From Sphingopyxis sp. YR583 (GTDB taxonomy: Bacteria; Pseudomonadota; Alphaproteobacteria; Sphingomonadales; Sphingomonadaceae), in the NCBI RefSeq assembly GCF_900108295.1, contig NZ_FNWK01000002.1, positions 124,001 to 188,000 of the forward strand: a DNA stretch of 64,000 bases, read 5' to 3'. The notes below the pieces were generated by a model. That model was not told the DNA's origin and did no database searches. It worked only from the letters and a program-made list of their open reading frames with translations. The position numbers and the translations under genes were made by a program. Positions 16,447 through 24,360 of the stretch are shown piece after piece; positions within the stretch are counted from its first letter, which is position 1; every line of letters starts with the position of its first letter.

Positions 16447-16489
16447 CGAAGCTATCCGGGGCAGTGGACGCTCGCCCCGGATAGCTTCG
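16447..16489. terminator. Perfect hairpin between convergent bkdB and the barrel gene
   Basis: CGAAGCTATCCGGGGC and GCCCCGGATAGCTTCG form a 16-base-pair perfect stem around an 11-base loop in the 68-base gap between two converging genes. There is no T-run, so termination would depend on the stem or on Rho; an mRNA 3'-end stabiliser is equally possible. Confidence 0.6.
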
Positions 16490-16506: not shown

Positions 16507-19500
16507 TTACAGCCCGAGCCCCGCGAAACTCGTCTGGTCGAACTTCAGTTTGAAGGTCACATAGGCGCCCGAGCGCGAGAAGCGTGCGTCCTCGAAATCG
16601 CGATCGTGGAAGCCCGCGAAATTATAGCCGAAGGTGATGTTCGCGTTGGTCATCGGCGCCAGCGTCACCGTCGGGCCGCCCGCCCAGCTCACCGTATCGG
16701 CGTCAGTGCCGACGCGCACGGTGCCCGACGCGCCGACGTCGACATGCTCGCCGAGGTTGAAACGGACGTCTGCGCCGATCAGGTTCGACCAACCCTTTAC
16801 GTCGTCTACGCCGAAGCGGTCGAAATTGTAGCGCGTGCCCCAGAAGAGGCCGATCTCGGCGCGTTCATACCAACCCTTGCCGAAACCGCGATCGCCAAGC
16901 GGTGTCCAGTTCACCGACAGGCTGTTGAGCAGGCGGCGGCTCGTCGCGTCGCCGTCGATCGTCAGCGTGCCGCCGATCGGGCCAGCCTGACCCGCTATCG
17001 CATCGCGAACCTTGTCCGAACGAAATTCGCTTTTGTTGAGCCATGATACTCGCGAATCGGCGGGACGGTGCGCCCAGCTCATCTCGAAGTTGATGACCTC
17101 GGTCGTTGGCGTCGTACCGCTGCCGCTTGCCTTCGCATAGGTGAAGAGTGCGCCGAGCGCCCGCCCTTCGCCAAGCTGGCGGAGGCCGCCGAGCGTCAGG
17201 CCGTAACGGTTGGCGATTTCGCCATTGCGATATTCGGCGCGACCGGTCAGTGTCCAGCGGTCGGCGCGATAAGTGGCGCCGGTGCTGATCGCGAGGAAAT
17301 CTTCGGTCAGCGTGCCATTGCCGCCTAAAAAGCCGCCCGAAGCCACCGGATGCTCGGTGTTGAGTACGTCGCCCGCGCGGACGCCGCCGATGGTGCGATT
17401 GCCGTCGACCGACACATCGACCGACCAGCGTTCGCCGAGCTTCAGCGATTGCGACAGACCATAGGCGGCAAAGCTGCGCGGACCATATTCGCCGATCTCC
17501 TGTTGGTTTGCGGTCGCGAGCAGGCGCGCGCCGGACCAGGGTGTGAGGTCGAAGCCAAGCCGCGCGGTGCGCGCCTTGATCGTGTCGCCGTCGGCAATCT
17601 CGTAGCTGCCGACCAGATTGACGTCGCGGTTGATCGCGTAGCGGGCGCCGAGACGATGGCGGGTCGGGAAATCGATGCTCGCATCCTTGCCACCGAGCGC
17701 AAATTCGGTCTGCGCGTCAAGTTCAAGCCGTTTATTGAAGAGCCGCTGCGTCGCGCCGAGCTGGACGATGTTCGAGCGGTTGCGGCTGCCGTCGGTCAGG
17801 CGGTCGTCGGCGTGGGTCAGCCCGGCGCGCGCGACGCTGATGCCATTGTCATATTCGACCAGCGCACGGGCGGCACGGCGGCGGGCATTGGTGTCGAGAT
17901 AGTCCTCCTGCCACGCACTGCCGGTCACCGAGAGGTTGCGGCTGGCTTTGAACCGCGCATCGAAACCGAATTTGCGCGTGCCATTCTCGCTGCTGTTGAG
18001 CTGACCGGTACCGAAACCCGCTTCGCGTTCGCGAACATAGGCGAGGAAGTCGGCGTTGCTGCTGTGATGCTCGGCCTCGATCAGCCATGCCTTGGCGGTG
18101 CCGTCGGCGGTCGTGCTGCCGTTCGTTGCCTTGGCATCGCTGACCGCGAGTTCGGCGCGGACCTCGGTCTCGATCGTCGGGCGATAGCGCGCATCGACGC
18201 CGCCGAGGTTCGTCTTGGCGTTGCCGTCCTCGTCATGGATGAAGGTCGCGCCGACGCGCAATTTCTCGTCATTCGACTGATAGCTGACGCGGCCGCCGGC
18301 GTTGAGCACACGGTGACCGACACCATCGACCTCATATTCGGCGACGATGAACTGCGGATCGAGGTTCGAGGAGCGGCTGAGCACCGGCTCGCGGAAGCGG
18401 ATCGTTCCCGACAGATAATCGATATCGTAATCGACGTGGCGCGACAGGCTGACGCTGTCGACGATGCGTTCGCTGTGCAGCCGGTTGCGCGTCTCGATCG
18501 TGATGCGCTCGCTGTTCGGCAGGATATCCTTTGCACCGAGCTGGTACGGACCCGTCAGGCCGTTGCCCTGAATCTCGTCGCGGCGGAAGCGATAGGGTGT
18601 GTCGGCGACGAAGGCGGTCGCCGCGACATTGCGGCCGCGATACTCGGCCTTGCCGCCGTTAAGCGCGCGTTGGTAACGTGCGAGTTCGGGTTCGGAGATC
18701 CCAGTCTCGATATCGCCGAACATCGCATAGAATTGCGGGCGTTCGAGGCGGATGTAGAGCTTGCGCACCGAGGCGGCGTCATAGCGCGTCTCGTTGCGAT
18801 CGGCGTAGATGGTATAATAGGCGCGCGGATCGATCACGCCGCCGAACCGGGCGTCGTCCTTGTCCTTGTCGCTGTCATAGGCCAGCGTCATCAGCCATTT
18901 TCCGCGCACACGGCCCTTGGCATAGAGCGCAAGGCGGGCATCGGCGTTGAGATCGCCCGTCGTCTCCGCCACCGGCTCCATCCGGTCGTCGAGCGTGTTG
19001 TAACCCAGCGTGCCTGCGGCAAAGCCTACGACGGTCCATGGACGATTGCCCGGGTCGAGCCAAGTTTCGATCGTCTGCTTGCGCGTCACCTTGTCGTCGC
19101 GGAAGGTGAAATCCATCGCGAGCGTGCCCGACGCGGTGGTCGGTTCGAGCTCGATATAGGCCACGCCATCGTCGCCGTCGATCTTCCACACCGGTTGTGC
19201 GCGTTCGAGGCCCGCGAGCTGGCGTGCCTGCTGCGCATCGGCTTCGACTGCCGGATAATAAGGCGTGGGAACGTTGAATTCGCCCGTCAGGCCGGCGCGG
19301 ATCGGCTTGCCGTCGCGGTCGGTCAGGCGCACCGCGATCACCGGGCGCGTCACGCCGTCGGCGACGAGCACCGACTTTTCGCGGATCAGCGATGCGCGCA
19401 TCGGGGTGATCGAATAATGAACATTGCGCTCGAGCGTTTCGACGACGGATCCGCCTGCATCCTTCACCTCGGCGACGAGGCGGTTTTCGCCCTCGCGGAT

Positions 19501-21594
19501 TTCAAGGCCGCGCCACAGGCTGACCACGACGCTGCCGTCGGCCGACTTGCTGACGCCTTCGAAGGTCAGGGGATCGGCGGGCTTGCCGTTGACGCGGAGC
19601 GACACCTTTTGCCCCGGGGCGTGCTTCACCGCGGCGCGGATCGCCTTGGCGCGCGGATTGTGGTCGGTGGTGGGGAACAGCCAGCCGATGCCGGGTGCTT
19701 CGCCTGCGACCCAATCGCGACCGGAGCCGGCCGCGTCGGGGTCGCTCAGCACCTTGGGCGCTTCGATTGCGACTTTGTTCGGCGCGGCGCGCGGCGCGCT
19801 GGCAACGGCGCGGAAGTCGGCGCGCTTCAGGGCGCCGCCGCGACCTTCGACAAAACGCGAAATCGGGCTGCCGGCGCTTTGCGTCGAGCGGGCGCAGTCG
19901 ATGGCTTCGCGATCCAGTGGGAGCGTCGACGGGTCGATCTGAACGACGTGCAGGCCGGGGCGCACACCCTCGAAATGATAGCGGCCATCCTCATCGGTGA
20001 CGGTGTAGCTGCCATCCTGCAGCATCACGCGGACGCCCATGACGCCGTCGGCCTTGCCCGGATCGACGTTGCAGCCGCCGTCGGTGATGCGGCCGATGAT
20101 CGTCATGCGGTCGCCGAGCTGGTCGCGTTTGATCGAAATCGTCGCTTCGGCGATATTGCTGGTCGAGCCGCGATTGTCGGTGGCGGTGGCGCGGTTGAGC
20201 GCGTTGCCCGGCTGCGCCGATACGATGACTTCGGCCAGATAGGTGAGCAGCGCCGAACGCGATGCCGCAATGCCGGGCAGGGTGACGGCGAACTCGCGGC
20301 CGTTCGCTGCGACAACGGCGTCGGTGCGCACGCCATCGACGCGGACGGTATCGGCGCGTAGCCGCATGCCGGCGGGCAGTACGTCGCGCACCGTCACCGC
20401 GCCGGTGTTGCGGCGCGTGTCGCGGTTCGCGACCTCGATGCGATACTGGATGACATCGCCGGGCACCGCGACCTGCGTCGAGGTCGTCTTGCGCAGGATC
20501 AGCGGCAAGCCGGGCTGGTCGACGGGAATATCGACGCGGACGGGCGCGGGGCTGCTCAGCGTGAACGGATTGCCATAGCTGGCGCCCGTGATCTCGAACG
20601 GCTGGCCGTCGTCTGGGCGGCGGAGGCCGGCGAGCGCGGCCGGGCTCGACGTCGACGGTGCGGTATAGGGGGCGGGCGGCGAGACGATCAGCCGGTAGGT
20701 CCCCGGCGCAACGAACGGGAAACGATAGTCGCCCGGCGGGAAGCTGTAGGTCGTGCCGCCAGCGTCGGTGACGGGCTGCCCGGTGATCACGCTCGACGGA
20801 TAGGCCGACACGCCGTCGTCGCCGAATACCTGCGCGGGCTGGCCGGTCGCTGCATCGACGAGCGTAACGCGGCTCCCCGCGACGGGCGCACCGTCGCCGC
20901 TGTCGAACACGATGCCGAAGGGGTCGACGAGGAAGTCGATTGTCGCGAGTGCGACAAGGCTGGCATTCGCCTGGTCGGTCACGCGCAGCGTCAACGGCGC
21001 ACCCGGATTGACCGACAGGCGGCAATCGCCCTGCACGACAGCAGGCGGGACGCCGATGGTGTTGATGATACCCACGAACTCGCCGCTGTTGTTTGCGGTC
21101 TCGGTCAGCGTGATCGCCTCGCGGTCGCCATTTTCGAGTTCGAGTATGACGGGCAGGGTGTCACGCGCCTGCGGATCGACGTTGGCCGATGCGAGCGTGA
21201 CCCCGACGACCAGCACTTCGCCGACCCGGAAATTGCTGGTGGATTGCAGCGACGCCGGCGCGGTCGAGATGCCTTCATAGACGCCGCCGAGATCGATCGT
21301 GCTGGTCGCGCTACGTGCCGCCGGGCGGCTGCATTGTGTGGGCGCGAGTGCTACCGATTTGTTGCCGCCGCCGTTGGTCAGGCGATAGGTGGTGATCGTC
21401 GGCCGCTCGGGCGGGCGCGCCGTCACCGTCACATCGACGCGATTCGACAGCGCCTGACCGGGCTGCCCGTCATGCGTCCACTGCGCCGAAGCCGTGTTCG
21501 TGATCACTTGTGCGTGCGCCGGGTTTGCCGCAGCCAGCATGGCTGCCGCGACCAAAGCGGTCACAAGGCCGGAAAATTTCGTGCGGAGTGCCAT
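16507..21594 (-). CDS. Giant DUF11/Ig-like protein with C-terminal outer-membrane barrel
   Basis: This 1,695-residue exported protein has a signal peptide (cut after AHA28) and an N-terminal module beginning ITNTASAQW and ending NRVDVTV. Around residues 365-478 is a DUF11-type Ig domain (VPGDVIQYRIEVANRDTR), around 500-555 an SdrD/Cna-B-like domain (VTDEDGRYHFEGVRPG), and around 745-770 a Big_1-like segment (VADGVTRPVIAVRLTD). From about residue 860 to the end, alternating-strand sequence with many aromatic-girdle repeats ends in GAYVTFKLKFDQTSF, as in outer-membrane beta-barrels. ATG 21594 gives the signal peptide; the open frame upstream has none. It is the last and largest gene of a four-gene operon whose other members share its N-terminal or DUF11 modules. 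Function is unknown; I infer an outer-membrane anchor or exporter for them. Confidence 0.8.
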   Translation of the reverse strand: MALRTKFSGLVTALVAAAMLAAANPAHAQVITNTASAQWTHDGQPGQALSNRVDVTVTARPPERPTITTYRLTNGGGNKSVALAPTQCSRPAARSATSTIDLGGVYEGISTAPASLQSTSNFRVGEVLVVGVTLASANVDPQARDTLPVILELENGDREAITLTETANNSGEFVGIINTIGVPPAVVQGDCRLSVNPGAPLTLRVTDQANASLVALATIDFLVDPFGIVFDSGDGAPVAGSRVTLVDAATGQPAQVFGDDGVSAYPSSVITGQPVTDAGGTTYSFPPGDYRFPFVAPGTYRLIVSPPAPYTAPSTSSPAALAGLRRPDDGQPFEITGASYGNPFTLSSPAPVRVDIPVDQPGLPLILRKTTSTQVAVPGDVIQYRIEVANRDTRRNTGAVTVRDVLPAGMRLRADTVRVDGVRTDAVVAANGREFAVTLPGIAASRSALLTYLAEVIVSAQPGNALNRATATDNRGSTSNIAEATISIKRDQLGDRMTIIGRITDGGCNVDPGKADGVMGVRVMLQDGSYTVTDEDGRYHFEGVRPGLHVVQIDPSTLPLDREAIDCARSTQSAGSPISRFVEGRGGALKRADFRAVASAPRAAPNKVAIEAPKVLSDPDAAGSGRDWVAGEAPGIGWLFPTTDHNPRAKAIRAAVKHAPGQKVSLRVNGKPADPLTFEGVSKSADGSVVVSLWRGLEIREGENRLVAEVKDAGGSVVETLERNVHYSITPMRASLIREKSVLVADGVTRPVIAVRLTDRDGKPIRAGLTGEFNVPTPYYPAVEADAQQARQLAGLERAQPVWKIDGDDGVAYIELEPTTASGTLAMDFTFRDDKVTRKQTIETWLDPGNRPWTVVGFAAGTLGYNTLDDRMEPVAETTGDLNADARLALYAKGRVRGKWLMTLAYDSDKDKDDARFGGVIDPRAYYTIYADRNETRYDAASVRKLYIRLERPQFYAMFGDIETGISEPELARYQRALNGGKAEYRGRNVAATAFVADTPYRFRRDEIQGNGLTGPYQLGAKDILPNSERITIETRNRLHSERIVDSVSLSRHVDYDIDYLSGTIRFREPVLSRSSNLDPQFIVAEYEVDGVGHRVLNAGGRVSYQSNDEKLRVGATFIHDEDGNAKTNLGGVDARYRPTIETEVRAELAVSDAKATNGSTTADGTAKAWLIEAEHHSSNADFLAYVREREAGFGTGQLNSSENGTRKFGFDARFKASRNLSVTGSAWQEDYLDTNARRRAARALVEYDNGISVARAGLTHADDRLTDGSRNRSNIVQLGATQRLFNKRLELDAQTEFALGGKDASIDFPTRHRLGARYAINRDVNLVGSYEIADGDTIKARTARLGFDLTPWSGARLLATANQQEIGEYGPRSFAAYGLSQSLKLGERWSVDVSVDGNRTIGGVRAGDVLNTEHPVASGGFLGGNGTLTEDFLAISTGATYRADRWTLTGRAEYRNGEIANRYGLTLGGLRQLGEGRALGALFTYAKASGSGTTPTTEVINFEMSWAHRPADSRVSWLNKSEFRSDKVRDAIAGQAGPIGGTLTIDGDATSRRLLNSLSVNWTPLGDRGFGKGWYERAEIGLFWGTRYNFDRFGVDDVKGWSNLIGADVRFNLGEHVDVGASGTVRVGTDADTVSWAGGPTVTLAPMTNANITFGYNFAGFHDRDFEDARFSRSGAYVTFKLKFDQTSFAGLGL

Positions 21595-21607
21595 AATAGC
21601 CCCGAAG

Positions 21608-21648
21608 GGAGCAGCGGGAGACGGTTTTCGGGCCGCAACCGCTGCTCC
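21608..21648 (-). promoter_or_regulatory. Hairpin between the DUF11 gene and the barrel gene
   Basis: GGAGCAGCGG (21608-21617) and CCGCTGCTCC (21639-21648) form a 10-base-pair inverted repeat inside the 67-base gap, just upstream of the barrel gene start. No T-run follows. It may dampen read-through or protect the upstream message, giving more of the small protein than of the barrel. Confidence 0.45.
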
Positions 21649-21661
21649 ATCGGTTTTCCGA

Positions 21662-22741
21662 TCAGTTGACCGTCGCGCGGAAAACGAGGGTGCTTGCGGC
21701 CCCCGCAGCGATCGAGGCGATCGTGCCCGACACGTTCGGCGCGGCGTAACTGCCGCCGGCGGTGCCGTTGAAATCGCACACTCCGCCCGTAACGGTGCCG
21801 CCCAGCAGGATCGTACCCGCATTGAACGTCAACTGGCCCGGAACCGGATCGGTGATCACGACCGACGTTGCAGCCGCGCCGCCGGAGTTGGAGACCGCGA
21901 TGCAATATTCGACGACTGCACCCGGAATCAGTTTCGGATTCGTTGTGTTGTTGAACGGATCCGAGATGACGCGGCTGCTTTTACTGACCGCAAGCGTCGC
22001 CGTTTGCAAGGTGTAGTCGTCGTTGTCGCTGTGCGAACCGTCGCGCGCGACATCGCCCGCAGCGCCGGCGATATCGGCGAAGACGGTGTCCTTGCCGGCG
22101 GTGTTCGCGCCGGTGGTTTCAGTGATCGCTGCACCCTGTGTCCCGGCAAGTCCGCCCTCGCGCGCCGTGGCACGCAAGGTCACGCCGGCGACTGCGCCGT
22201 TGACGACGGCAGGCACTGCAAGCGTCGTCGGGATGTCTGCGACAACGAACAGGCGAATCGCCGTATCGACGACGAGTTCGTCGACATAACCGGTGAGCAG
22301 GGTGTCGCCGACATCCCAGCTGCCGACCGTACCCGTGACGGTATTGTCACGATAGATGCGGATGTTGTTCACGTTGAACGTGTCGGTGCCGCCGTGTGCG
22401 GCGGTGCCGCCCGCGATCTGCGACGCGACGAGCGCAAAATCGAGCGTTTCGTTCGACGTGTTCGTCAACTGAAACGTCGTGACGGCATTCGCCTGTCCGG
22501 GCACGACGTTGGTCGTGACCGTACCGACCTCTTCGACGAGGAGGTTGATCTTGCGGTCGACGACGAAATTGTTCGCCGCTTGCTGCTGGGCCTGTGCGAC
22601 GCCACCGACCTGATAGTCGACGGTAGCGGTATTCGTGATCGTGGTGCCCGCGGTCGTGCCGGCGGCAAAGGCCGGCGTGGCGGCGACGCTCGAAAGCGCC
22701 GCCAGACCGATGACACCCATATACGTCAGCTTGCTGGTCAT
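21662..22741 (-). CDS. Exported DUF11-domain protein
   Basis: The 359-residue product has a signal peptide (cut near AFA26) and then TTITNTATVDYQVGG, the same N-terminal module as in the first gene of the operon and the giant barrel protein. A central beta-rich region follows. The C-terminal DUF11 Ig-like domain carries LIPGAVVEYCIAVSNSGG and VVITDPVPGQLTF, closing with FRATVN. AGGAG lies eight bases before ATG 22741. It is Asp/Thr/Ala-rich with only two visible cysteines, both in the DUF11 domain (one in EYCIAV, one in GGVCDF), which could pair. DUF11 domains are known as repeats in bacterial and archaeal surface proteins; a surface fibre or matrix role is inferred. Confidence 0.78.
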   Translation of the reverse strand: MTSKLTYMGVIGLAALSSVAATPAFAAGTTAGTTITNTATVDYQVGGVAQAQQQAANNFVVDRKINLLVEEVGTVTTNVVPGQANAVTTFQLTNTSNETLDFALVASQIAGGTAAHGGTDTFNVNNIRIYRDNTVTGTVGSWDVGDTLLTGYVDELVVDTAIRLFVVADIPTTLAVPAVVNGAVAGVTLRATAREGGLAGTQGAAITETTGANTAGKDTVFADIAGAAGDVARDGSHSDNDDYTLQTATLAVSKSSRVISDPFNNTTNPKLIPGAVVEYCIAVSNSGGAAATSVVITDPVPGQLTFNAGTILLGGTVTGGVCDFNGTAGGSYAAPNVSGTIASIAAGAASTLVFRATVN

Positions 22742-22815
22742 AGCTGAGCTCCTGGGCTTTATGCTGGTTGCCGTTTCCCCACCGCTGGCAACCGTTAAGC
22801 GGTTTTATTCAGTCG

Positions 22816-23280
22816 CTATTTGACGACTCCCCGAAACATGAGTTTGCCTGTTCCGCCTGCAGGGATCGGCTTTTGGAAAGCCCAGCGGACGTGCGTGACG
22901 TCCGCCGGCTGCGCTGCGCGCCGCGAGCCGTCCGTCATCGGAATGCTGAGGTCGGAAAGCAGTCCCCACTGCTTGCCGCCATCGACCGAAACGAGCGGGC
23001 TGCTATCGCCCGCGTCCGCAAAGCGGACCGCGGCGGGCATCGGGTTGGTAATGACGAACTTGTCGGCTGGCTGTGCGCCGGCGTTGCGATAGTTGAGCAC
23101 GAAGACGAGCCGATCGCCGGGAACGACGACCTTCGGCTCCTCGAGCAGGATCTTCTGCTTGCCCTGGGCATCGGTCGACACGCGTTCGACGAACACATTA
23201 TTGTCGAGCGCAACCTGGTTGGCAGCGAGCGCCTGGCCCGGCATCAGCGTGGCGAGCAAAAGCAAAAGAGCGGTGCGCAT
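22816..23280 (-). CDS. Small exported DUF11-like protein
   Basis: The 154-residue protein has a signal peptide (MRTALLLLLATL to ALA19) followed by a single Ig-like DUF11 unit: VVVPGDRLVFVLNYRNAG, FVITNPMPAAVRF and a final strand KLMFRGVVK. It lacks the ITNTA module of its neighbours. I chose ATG 23280 because GGAG sits six bases upstream; ATG 23292, which overlaps the preceding gene's stop by one base, would add four residues. It is third from the end in the DUF11 operon and may be an adaptor or tip-like subunit; that role is speculative. Confidence 0.75.
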   Translation of the reverse strand: MRTALLLLLATLMPGQALAANQVALDNNVFVERVSTDAQGKQKILLEEPKVVVPGDRLVFVLNYRNAGAQPADKFVITNPMPAAVRFADAGDSSPLVSVDGGKQWGLLSDLSIPMTDGSRRAAQPADVTHVRWAFQKPIPAGGTGKLMFRGVVK

Positions 23281-23291
23281 ACGCATCTCCA

Positions 23292-24293
23292 TCAGTTAAT
23301 TCGGGTGCGGAAGGTGACGGTGCGGGTCTGCCCGCCGGCGACAGTGCCGAGCGCAACGTTGATCCGCGTGCCGTTGTAATCGCCCGCATCGGCGTCGGCC
23401 GCATCTGACAGGCCGCCGCCGCCGAGCGTGATCGAGCCGGGGACATAGCTGGTGTCTGCGGGGATATTGTCGGTGATTGCCAACCCGCTGACCGAGCCGC
23501 TGCCCGCTACGGTGGCGACAATTGTGTAAGTGATTATCGCGCCGGGAACCGGATCGGCCGTACCAAGCGAATTGGTGACGACGGCCGATTTGACGAGCGT
23601 CACCGTCGCTGCAGATACGATGAAGGCGCCTGCATCCTGACCGTCAGCACCCGTCGAGCCGACAACGGCGTCGCCGCCGCCTTCGCCCCGTCCTGCAAAG
23701 CTGGTTCCTGGAGCGCCGGTGCCCGTTTTCGCCGCCGCGACGAGGCTGACGATGCCGCGATTTCCATCGACGACCGTTCCCGGTGTCGTCGCGAGGACAA
23801 AAACAGTGATGCTCTGGTCGGGATTGAGCGAGGGGTCGTTTGCGCCCGCTGTATAAAGTGTGTCGGTGCTCGCATCGAAAACGCCGTCGCCATTATCGAT
23901 ATAGATTTGCGTAACGACGGGGTCGTAATTGTCGCCGCCGGCGTTCGCGATCGTCGTGAGCCCAAAGGCCTCGACGCCGTTGCCGTTATTGGTGACCGAG
24001 AAGGTGAGCACCTGCGCCGTTGCGCCCGGTGTGGTCGGAACGTCGGCAGGATTGCTCGAATCGACCGTGACGTCGAGCAGTTCGTCGACAAGCAGATCGA
24101 CGCGGTTCGAATCGACCGTGGTCGTGCCGCCGCCAGTGTCGAAACTCGCGCTCGCGGTGTTGCTGATGGTGGAACCGGCACGGGTGCCGGCTGCTTCGGC
24201 CTGCATCGGCAGCGCGAACGCGGCCAGCAAGGCGAGAATTGAACACGAGGGTAGAAGCTGATGCTTCGCGCCCCCCACAGGCGCTTTCATCAT
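23292..24293 (-). CDS. Exported DUF11-domain protein, first gene of operon
   Basis: This 333-residue protein has a signal sequence (hydrophobic residues about 15-30, cut near AEA) and then the module STISNTASASFDTGGG ending in NRVDLLVDEL. Next come two further beta-rich segments and a C-terminal DUF11 domain (VPGAIITYTIVATVAGSG, AITDNIPADTSYVPG) ending TVTFRTRIN. The start is ATG 24293, with GGAG eight bases upstream; a GTG one codon earlier is possible. Its layout mirrors the 359-residue protein, so the two are probably ancient paralogues. A CtrA-like box lies 53 bases upstream. Very low cysteine content suits extracellular exposure. Confidence 0.78.
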   Translation of the reverse strand: MMKAPVGGAKHQLLPSCSILALLAAFALPMQAEAAGTRAGSTISNTASASFDTGGGTTTVDSNRVDLLVDELLDVTVDSSNPADVPTTPGATAQVLTFSVTNNGNGVEAFGLTTIANAGGDNYDPVVTQIYIDNGDGVFDASTDTLYTAGANDPSLNPDQSITVFVLATTPGTVVDGNRGIVSLVAAAKTGTGAPGTSFAGRGEGGGDAVVGSTGADGQDAGAFIVSAATVTLVKSAVVTNSLGTADPVPGAIITYTIVATVAGSGSVSGLAITDNIPADTSYVPGSITLGGGGLSDAADADAGDYNGTRINVALGTVAGGQTRTVTFRTRIN

Positions 24294-24345: not shown

Positions 24346-24360
24346 GTAATTTCTGGTTAA
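24346..24360 (-). promoter_or_regulatory. CtrA-like box upstream of the DUF11 operon
   Basis: Read on the minus strand this is TTAACCAGAAATTAC, matching the CtrA consensus TTAA-N7-TTAA with one mismatch. A TTTATC element follows downstream at -10-like distance, so the box would cover the -35 region, as in CtrA-activated promoters. Cell-cycle control of the operon is inferred only. Confidence 0.4.

Follow-up and report, generated by a model that had tools for sequence, protein, structure and literature searches.

Four adjacent genes, here called A, B, C and D, lie on the minus strand of a 64,000-nucleotide stretch of the Sphingopyxis sp. YR583 genome (the window; RefSeq assembly GCF_900108295.1, contig NZ_FNWK01000002.1, positions 124,001 to 188,000). 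They raise a simple question: why are exported proteins built from DUF11 domains encoded together with a giant protein that ends in a predicted outer-membrane barrel? An initial annotation of the window had proposed a dedicated surface system without a described precedent. The open reading frames (ORFs) of the four genes were confirmed between 24293 and 16507 with the lengths it gave, and its overall interpretation is partly supported: a barrel is predicted within residues 860–1695 of D, and the four genes do occur together. The answer towards which we lean is that A–D belong to an outer-membrane assembly system built on a split DUF11 (split CLIPPER) domain.

Evidence for a divided DUF11 domain

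DUF11 has been renamed CLIPPER, and its crystal structure (9IFR) contains an intramolecular isopeptide bond with the triad Lys715-Asp748-Asn806; according to the same source the bond is not present in every DUF11 domain (PMC12617251). An ordinary isopeptide-forming DUF11 domain holds in one chain the Lys, the catalytic Asp and, on its last strand (ITN-T-A), the bond-forming Asn; here, we propose, these are divided among proteins. Only the internal DUF11 copy of D has the complete triad in one domain (Lys369, Asp404 and Asn467, assigned from their spacing and each conserved in 15 of 16 homologues). Whereas that copy spans Pfam positions 3–113, the C-terminal DUF11 of A and C halts at position 84 of 114, and these copies, like those of all 30 cargo proteins described below, are without the Asn strand. 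We call the truncated domain the catcher. Its Lys is conserved in 28/28 A, 42/42 C and 27/30 cargo proteins, and its Asp in 28/28, 42/42 and 28/30.

The strand that the catchers lack appears to be present elsewhere. Behind the signal peptide A starts with AGTRAGSTISNTASASF, C with AGTTAGTTITNTATVDY and D with QVITNTASAQW, and from ITNTA to NRVD the three proteins have an N-terminal module in common, as the initial annotation had noticed. A loose form of the motif was found in 70/73 A, 72/75 C and 74/74 D, compared with 17/74 B, 1/29 cargo proteins and 25/1,919 decoy ORFs; the strict form, which adds a preceding Gly, was found in 69/73 A, 70/75 C, 2/74 D, 0/74 B and 4/1,919 decoys. Because the motif is so much more frequent in the homologues than in the decoys, the shared module goes beyond chance. 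Positions 10–71 of the D profile by themselves match the N-terminus of A in two genomes (G182 and G194, E-values 5e-4 and 8e-4), which relates the module of A to that of D, and a tag is recognizable by eye in 11 of 12 A/C-like and 7 of 10 D-type proteins of distant Proteobacteria. The sharing of the module holds, but it is not an independent domain: it resembles the final strand that the truncated DUF11 lacks, with mixed results in joined-sequence tests (below). That the tag of A, C and D represents this detached strand, bearing the isopeptide Asn, is well supported by the sequence comparisons.

A 14-residue matrix, trained on no sequences other than the N-termini of A and C, was scanned against DUF11 sites in other ORFs, orthologues of A–D having been removed; 63 of 112 internal DUF11 sites had enough flanking sequence. 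The best match fell at +85 to +130 of the domain start at 30 of the 63 sites, versus a mean of 13.3 (6–21) for 20 column-permuted matrices. Fifteen of the 16 best matches lie at +93 to +97, which is the last strand (e.g. GSTITNTAQITASS and GATITNIAEVSASS in proteins of the E type, see below). Most best matches come from orthologous E proteins and are not independent events; one comes from an unrelated protein of the X type (L033, see below).

Joining the tags of A, C and D to the catcher of C raised its score against DUF7507 from 18.2 bits to 27.4, 24.1 and 25.0, with 18.6, 17.6 and 17.8 for the controls; the catcher of A rose from 17.8 to 23.4 and 20.6 bits with tags joined. Against PF01345 the catcher of C scored 36.9 bits alone, 39.8, 41.5 and 43.9 with the tags of A, C and D, and 41.4, 37.9 and 36.4 with the controls. 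A and C carry a predicted tag together with a predicted catcher, D the tag only and cargo proteins the catcher only. Because D and the cargo hold one half each, pairing would take place between molecules, which the sequences make quite probable.

Cargo proteins share the predicted catcher at their C-termini

The initial annotation limited the system to four genes. The set of four stands but the limit does not, as genes for proteins with the same C-terminal domain occur beside the operon or elsewhere in the genome. One of them, E, is a further exported DUF11 protein, whose gene follows D in 10 of the 80 loci sampled (see below). In Sphingopyxis sp. YR583 itself E is unlinked (L183, 660 aa, P-domain plus DUF11) and lies beside F (682 aa, sub-threshold Calx-beta). 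E, F and C have a C-terminal domain of ∼ 115–150 residues in common, and profile A5 of this domain retrieves C, E, F and A from the Sphingopyxis sp. YR583 genome and matches internal copies in D and E more weakly. The internal DUF11 of E has the Asn strand, its C-terminal copy is without it.

The position of the catcher is fixed. It lies within five residues of the C-terminus in 30/30 cargo proteins (linked E genes, E and F included; the E orthologue of L243 and a piece in L252 are omitted), eight of which helped to build profile A5 and 22 did not. The same holds for 21/21 carriers in 20 fetched regions, which were hand-picked for catcher carriers that are neither A nor C; two of these regions (L244 and L245) turn out to sit immediately 3′ of D. 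In 48 further loci, which overlap in part and have A and C among their matches, all 42 catcher matches of at least 45 bits are C-terminal and the best internal match reaches 36 bits. By blastp the C-terminal domains of the cargo form one cluster, the 29 N-terminal parts of sufficient length eight (of 15, 4, 3, 2, 2, 1, 1 and 1 members). Ten cargo proteins scanned gave SpaA_3, CshA_NR2, GEVED, P-domain, DUF2341, DUF7933 and choice_anch_U (33.8 bits, cut-off 32) above the cut-off, and F5/8 type C, Calx-beta, AgmC (142.5 bits versus 275) and a PEP-CTERM family (89.1 versus 90) below it. A region search with the catcher gave no new cargo types, the 120 matches listed all having the architecture of E (PF01345 + PF01483). 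From these data the catcher seems to serve varied adhesin-like cargo as a common domain for sorting or docking. A large N-terminal domain is shared by the two cargo proteins encoded immediately after D; in L244 it resembles the adventurous gliding protein AgmC of Myxococcus (NF047640, E-value 1.8e-41, below the cut-off).

D proper is present in 44 of 196 genomes of the order. This count leaves out three genomes (G012, G157 and G184) that match D solely via the related two-gene system X-Y, and takes in G130, where a contig edge leaves just the end of D. The catcher profile matches all 44 D-positive genomes versus 2 of 152 D-negative ones (G194 and G162); this co-occurrence is partly built in, C being an operon member. 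Carriers besides A and C, as read by eye from the rows, were found in 43 of the 44 (at least one each). Phylum-wide the profile, which is weaker at that scale, matches 32 of 398 genomes, and 28 of the 32 also match D or Y.

Would a sorting signal explain these observations equally well? The C-terminal domain might be a folded signal of a type IX-like kind, read by D or by D with A–C, and the ITNTA strand a mere relic. In favour of such a signal, the domain stands at the extreme C-terminus of exported proteins that are otherwise unrelated, and it occurs in just 2 of 152 D-negative genomes; moreover, N-terminal domains of the cargo are known with other C-terminal anchors (the choice_anch_U and PEP-CTERM scores above). 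It would leave unexplained that the domain is without exactly the strand that A, C and D bear at their N-termini, Asn conserved, and kinship of D with the type IX protein SprA (TIGR04189) was dropped at 13.8 bits against a cut-off of 200, with 2 of 16 D members at E ≤ 0.1. We regard a sorting signal as rather improbable and retain the divided domain.

Protein D and its predicted barrel

An AlphaFold2 model of residues 496–1695 of D (mean pLDDT 68.4, pTM 0.41) lists 36 antiparallel strands between residues 980 and 1683, so that the large C-terminal outer-membrane barrel anticipated for this giant protein is predicted with moderate confidence. The best Foldseek matches are chains of SlpA (E-value 4.5e-8), with TM-scores by query length of 0.26–0.28, and SprA is absent from the 50 matches listed for D in each of two structure searches. 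The arrangement of D had been described as the reverse of intimin. The order itself is correct, but it is not unusual, because N-terminal domains followed by a C-terminal barrel are the ordinary order of autotransporters and of SlpA.

Ahead of the barrel, 6 of 10 distant D homologues scanned have an OmpA domain, which is a peptidoglycan-binding domain, and because of this the pre-barrel part of D is probably periplasmic rather than displayed. Of the proposed dedicated surface system the conserved gene set and the barrel partner hold up, whereas surface display of the part of D before the barrel is improbable. Residues 851–978 of D (18661–19044) are among its most conserved, with an AlphaFold2 pLDDT below 30, and the Y proteins match D within these residues.

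The same data bear on a second alternative, namely that A and C are circularly permuted monomers, each completing itself, and that D is an SlpA-like tether between outer membrane and peptidoglycan, as well as a pore, coated by soluble proteins. A modelled alone reaches a pLDDT of 86.4, and the SlpA matches of D and the OmpA domains of its distant homologues likewise favour this alternative. Self-completion is impossible, however, for D, which has a tag and no truncated catcher, and for 28 of 29 cargo proteins, which have a catcher and no tag motif. This alternative is thus quite improbable, and tag–catcher pairing between proteins is kept as the preferred reading.

Conservation, order and co-occurrence

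Named loci were taken from the best 80 of at least 564 confirmed relatives found with D and come from Sphingopyxis, Sphingorhabdus, Parasphingorhabdus, Novosphingobium, relatives of Erythrobacter and others. Five loci without upstream DNA were omitted from the gene-order count; in 74 of the remaining 75 the order A-B-C-D is kept, the sole exception (L089) showing A, C and D and no B. A (E ≤ 1e-10) is present in 44/44 D-positive versus 1/152 D-negative genomes. The trait is patchy, seven genera (g2, g3, g4, g6, g10, g12 and g15, rows read by eye) each mixing D-positive and D-negative members. Order and co-occurrence support the initial annotation in that A–D form a dedicated and conserved set of genes, one of which codes for the predicted outer-membrane barrel.

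Relatives of the D profile were found in 55 of 398 genomes of the phylum, several of the Y type only. Among 20 phylum stretches fetched, two of which are from the Sphingopyxis genome itself, D has A-, B- or C-like genes ahead of it in nine (L167, L168, L170–L173, L175, L177 and L185). The arrangement recurs in distant Proteobacteria. The idea that these are ordinary DUF11 adhesins, neighbours by chance and with a merely shuffled C-terminal domain, is very improbable: DUF11 is commonly the stalk of fibrillar adhesins (PMC12617251) and generic DUF11 (PF01345) occurs in 9/152 D-negative as well as 43/44 D-positive genomes, but only one of those nine (G194) has the catcher type, and strict order in 74/75 loci, joint gain and loss and a fixed C-terminal position would be unexpected.

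Several observations stand beside these counts. In a related two-gene system, X-Y (L031–L033, L035–L037, L174, L176, L179, L180 and L186), the two parts are not fused but come from separate, adjacent genes: X, which reaches 2,958 aa, has repeats of DUF11 and similar domains, and Y has a D-like barrel. Among the named relatives of Y are hypothetical proteins from Stenotrophomonas, Xanthomonas, Pseudoxanthomonas and Lysobacter. A contig labelled Woeseia (L130) carries a sphingomonad-like operon with a D that is 46% identical, for which transfer and mis-binning both fit. DUF11 repeats occur in an 11,302-aa open frame of one D-negative sphingomonad (G025:C1, about 2196778–2198292).

A proposed assembly

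If DUF11 is divided in this way, the exported subunits would meet in the periplasm, where the tag of one protein would complete the catcher of another. The result would be a strand-complemented joint that may well be cross-linked from Lys to Asn; the chances for and against such a covalent bond appear evenly balanced. Cargo, with a catcher only, could stand exclusively at the outer end; A and C, with both halves, would be adaptors or chain links, and these may polymerize into fibres; D, with the tag only, would be the base. Its barrel would let the chain out tip first, in the manner of an usher, or hold it at the outer membrane. Export through D is a tentative suggestion.

B could shield tags without bonding to them, although we consider this candidate chaperone role less likely than not. 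The place of the catalytic Asp is taken by Asn83 in 74/75 B proteins, and Glu36 (68/75) and Arg37 (60/75) lie near the place of the Lys. B resembles a catcher whose catalytic residues were lost in sphingomonads. We leave this ‘dead catcher’ outside the core claim because distant B homologues are mixed. The fullest version of the proposal, a natural Gram-negative tag/catcher system that joins outer-membrane fibres and surface proteins by sortase-free, spontaneous Lys–Asn bonds across a divided DUF11, with D as base and exporter and B as an inactive-catcher chaperone, falls slightly short of an even chance.

A number of results count against a split-DUF11 system. An earlier matrix scan covered only six sites and gave no signal either way. 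On PF01345 the tags add 2.9–7.0 bits, yet the N-terminus of B, used as a control, adds 4.5. Five further joined pairs compared with a reversed tag were mixed (three gain 3.4–5.6 bits, one loses 0.7 and one is unrecognized), and a hairpin profile from the internal DUF11 of D did not recognize the tags, decoys and shuffled tags scoring higher. A and C could complete themselves, and the barrel of D is modelled with moderate confidence only. Among distant D proteins some are missing the Asn or the motif, which is recognizable in 7 of 10, 3 of 7 distant B-like proteins keep Asp at the catalytic place, and the Lys is missing in 3 of 30 cargo proteins. As to occurrence, one D-positive genome (G182) is without cargo beyond A and C, and 4 of the 32 catcher-bearing genomes of the phylum scan (G378, G393, G439 and G571) are without D or Y. 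On further search no D was found in the two D-negative genomes with a catcher: G194 (L197) retains A, one B/C-like ORF and, unlinked, a catcher ORF of 573 aa, and G162 (L252) retains a 121-residue catcher piece.

Enzyme-free covalent surface joining is mainly the province of isopeptide domains in Gram-positive adhesins and of the laboratory tools derived from them. Archaeal threads, with their proposed bond, are a further case (PMC9715654). If true, the split-DUF11 proposal would mean that Alpha- and other Proteobacteria assemble surface structures covalently in a way that forms a class of its own. A divided isopeptide-type domain would account for many unnamed DUF11 proteins and would supply a rule for finding cargo, namely a truncated DUF11 exactly at the C-terminus. 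It could be a source of new orthogonal tag/catcher pairs, and fibre building and anchoring in the outer membrane would become testable.

Comparison with known systems

The gene set A–D has no described counterpart in the literature searched (open-licence PMC papers), in agreement with the initial annotation. The working principle would be closest to donor-strand-like assembly of chaperone-usher pili (Fim/Pap), the joint being a split isopeptide-type DUF11 instead; no Pfam match at E ≤ 1 was obtained for the usher (PF00577) in D or for PapD-like chaperone and fimbrial families in A–D. A thread of Sulfolobus acidocaldarius (Saci_0406), likened here by description only, combines donor strand complementation with a proposed intermolecular isopeptide bond, which differs in joining Asn57 to the N-terminal α-amino group two subunits on (PMC9715654).

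The fibrillar CLIPPER adhesins have the domain family, the Lys-Asp-Asn triad and the surface location in common with the proposed system (PMC12617251), and the grappling hook GhlA of Litorilinea the domain family and surface location (PMC13319060). In those adhesins a single chain holds the complete domain as a stalk repeat, whereas here it would be divided among proteins. The parts of a preprint on F-ENA spore fibres that concern DUF11 present it solely as repeats of the anchor protein.

Type IX secretion has a giant barrel and a C-terminal Ig-like sorting domain shared by diverse cargo, and the present system would work in a similar manner with the barrel of D and the Ig-like catcher; no NCBIfam match to the type IX C-terminal sorting domain was found in 10 cargo proteins at E ≤ 0.01. 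Autotransporter and intimin barrel families gave no Pfam match at E ≤ 1 other than a weak one to an Ig domain, Invasin_D3 (E-value 0.63). For type XI secretion, DUF560/Slam and the TbpB-type barrel were not matched in A–D (E ≤ 1) or in 10 cargo proteins (E ≤ 0.01) with Pfam. A link to type XI secretion suggested by 25 occurrences of ‘DUF11’ in a cargo paper was discarded, the strings in the relevant portions of that paper being nearly all DUF1194.

SlpA of Deinococcus radiodurans has a large C-terminal barrel preceded by non-barrel domains; it is the best Foldseek match of D, yet with the low TM-scores given above. To our knowledge SlpA has no associated split-domain subunits, and we know of neither an outer membrane nor a DUF11 triad in the case of the archaeal thread.

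Operon organization and other features

The junctions are short or overlapping, as had been noted: A and B overlap by 1 nt (TGATG), and gaps of 74 nt and 67 nt separate B from C and C from D. The mechanical ORF of D begins upstream of the chosen start, at 21822. A Sec signal peptide is apparent by eye at the start of all four proteins.

A, B and C had each been assigned a closing DUF11 unit. Their FR endings are present (FRTRIN, FRGVVK and FRATVN, respectively). Scores of the whole proteins against PF01345 are 30.8 bits for C and 36.6 for D, above the Pfam gathering score of 24.6, with A just below it (23.9) and B weak (17.5); the catcher piece of A scored alone reaches 30.3 bits. The assignment thus holds for C, narrowly misses for A and is weak for B. 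Similarity between A and C had been seen at their ends only; they are in fact homologous along their full length (hhalign E-value 5e-47, 302 columns).

In structure searches with the AlphaFold2 model of A the matches are tandem Ig-like domains. The Foldseek and VIA-align matches are generic Ig pairs, e.g. integrin legs, mostly with rmsd values of 10–14, and carry no weight here. When solved structures were searched by sequence with D, C and profile A2, from which L090 was left out owing to its extended end, the matches were at chance level only.

Table 1. Positions of the four genes and their predicted parts in the window.
Feature	Position	Strand	Remarks
Gene A	23292..24293	-	333 aa; putative tag, Ig-like domain, C-terminal DUF11 without last strand (putative catcher); AlphaFold2 pLDDT 86.4
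Gene B	22816..23292	-	158 aa; one DUF11-like domain, strict tag motif absent
Gene C	21662..22741	-	359 aa; paralogue of A along full length
Gene D	16507..21594	-	1,695 aa; putative tag, further N-terminal region, complete DUF11, CarboxypepD_reg/SdrD_B, Ig-like region, large predicted barrel
Putative tag of A	24090..24191	-	residues 35–68, AGTRAGSTISNTASASF...SNRVD; Asn45 28/28
Putative tag of C	22559..22663	-	residues 27–61, AGTTAGTTITNTATVDY...; Asn37 41/42
Putative tag of D	21421..21510	-	residues 29–58, QVITNTASAQW...SNRVD; Asn33 16/16
Putative catcher of A	23295..23609	-	residues 229–333; DUF11 ends at Pfam position 84/114; Lys235, Asp275 28/28
Putative catcher of C	21665..22000	-	residues 248–359; Lys254, Asp298 42/42; domain type found on cargo
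Complete internal DUF11 of D	20140..20499	-	residues 366–485; Pfam 3–113 of 114
CarboxypepD_reg (above cut-off) / SdrD_B (just below) of D	19933..20064	-	residues 511–554
Predicted C-terminal barrel region of D	16510..19017	-	residues 860–1695; strands modelled 980–1683
Possible terminator 3′ of D	16447..16489	-	perfect 16-nt inverted repeat

A second B-like protein of 170 aa (L184:8803–9315; 113 bits to the B profile) is encoded in the same genome, unlinked to the operon and beside a DUF3800 gene. Upstream of A by 67 nt lies a half-site pair, TTAACCAGAAATTAC (24346–24360, minus strand), of the form TTAA-N7-TTAA, which we take to be CtrA-like. With at most one mismatch allowed, 54 of 72 loci have such a pair in the 300 nt ahead of A, whereas shuffled sequences gave ∼ 6.5 per 72 and random windows 1.65; its placement varies from genus to genus.

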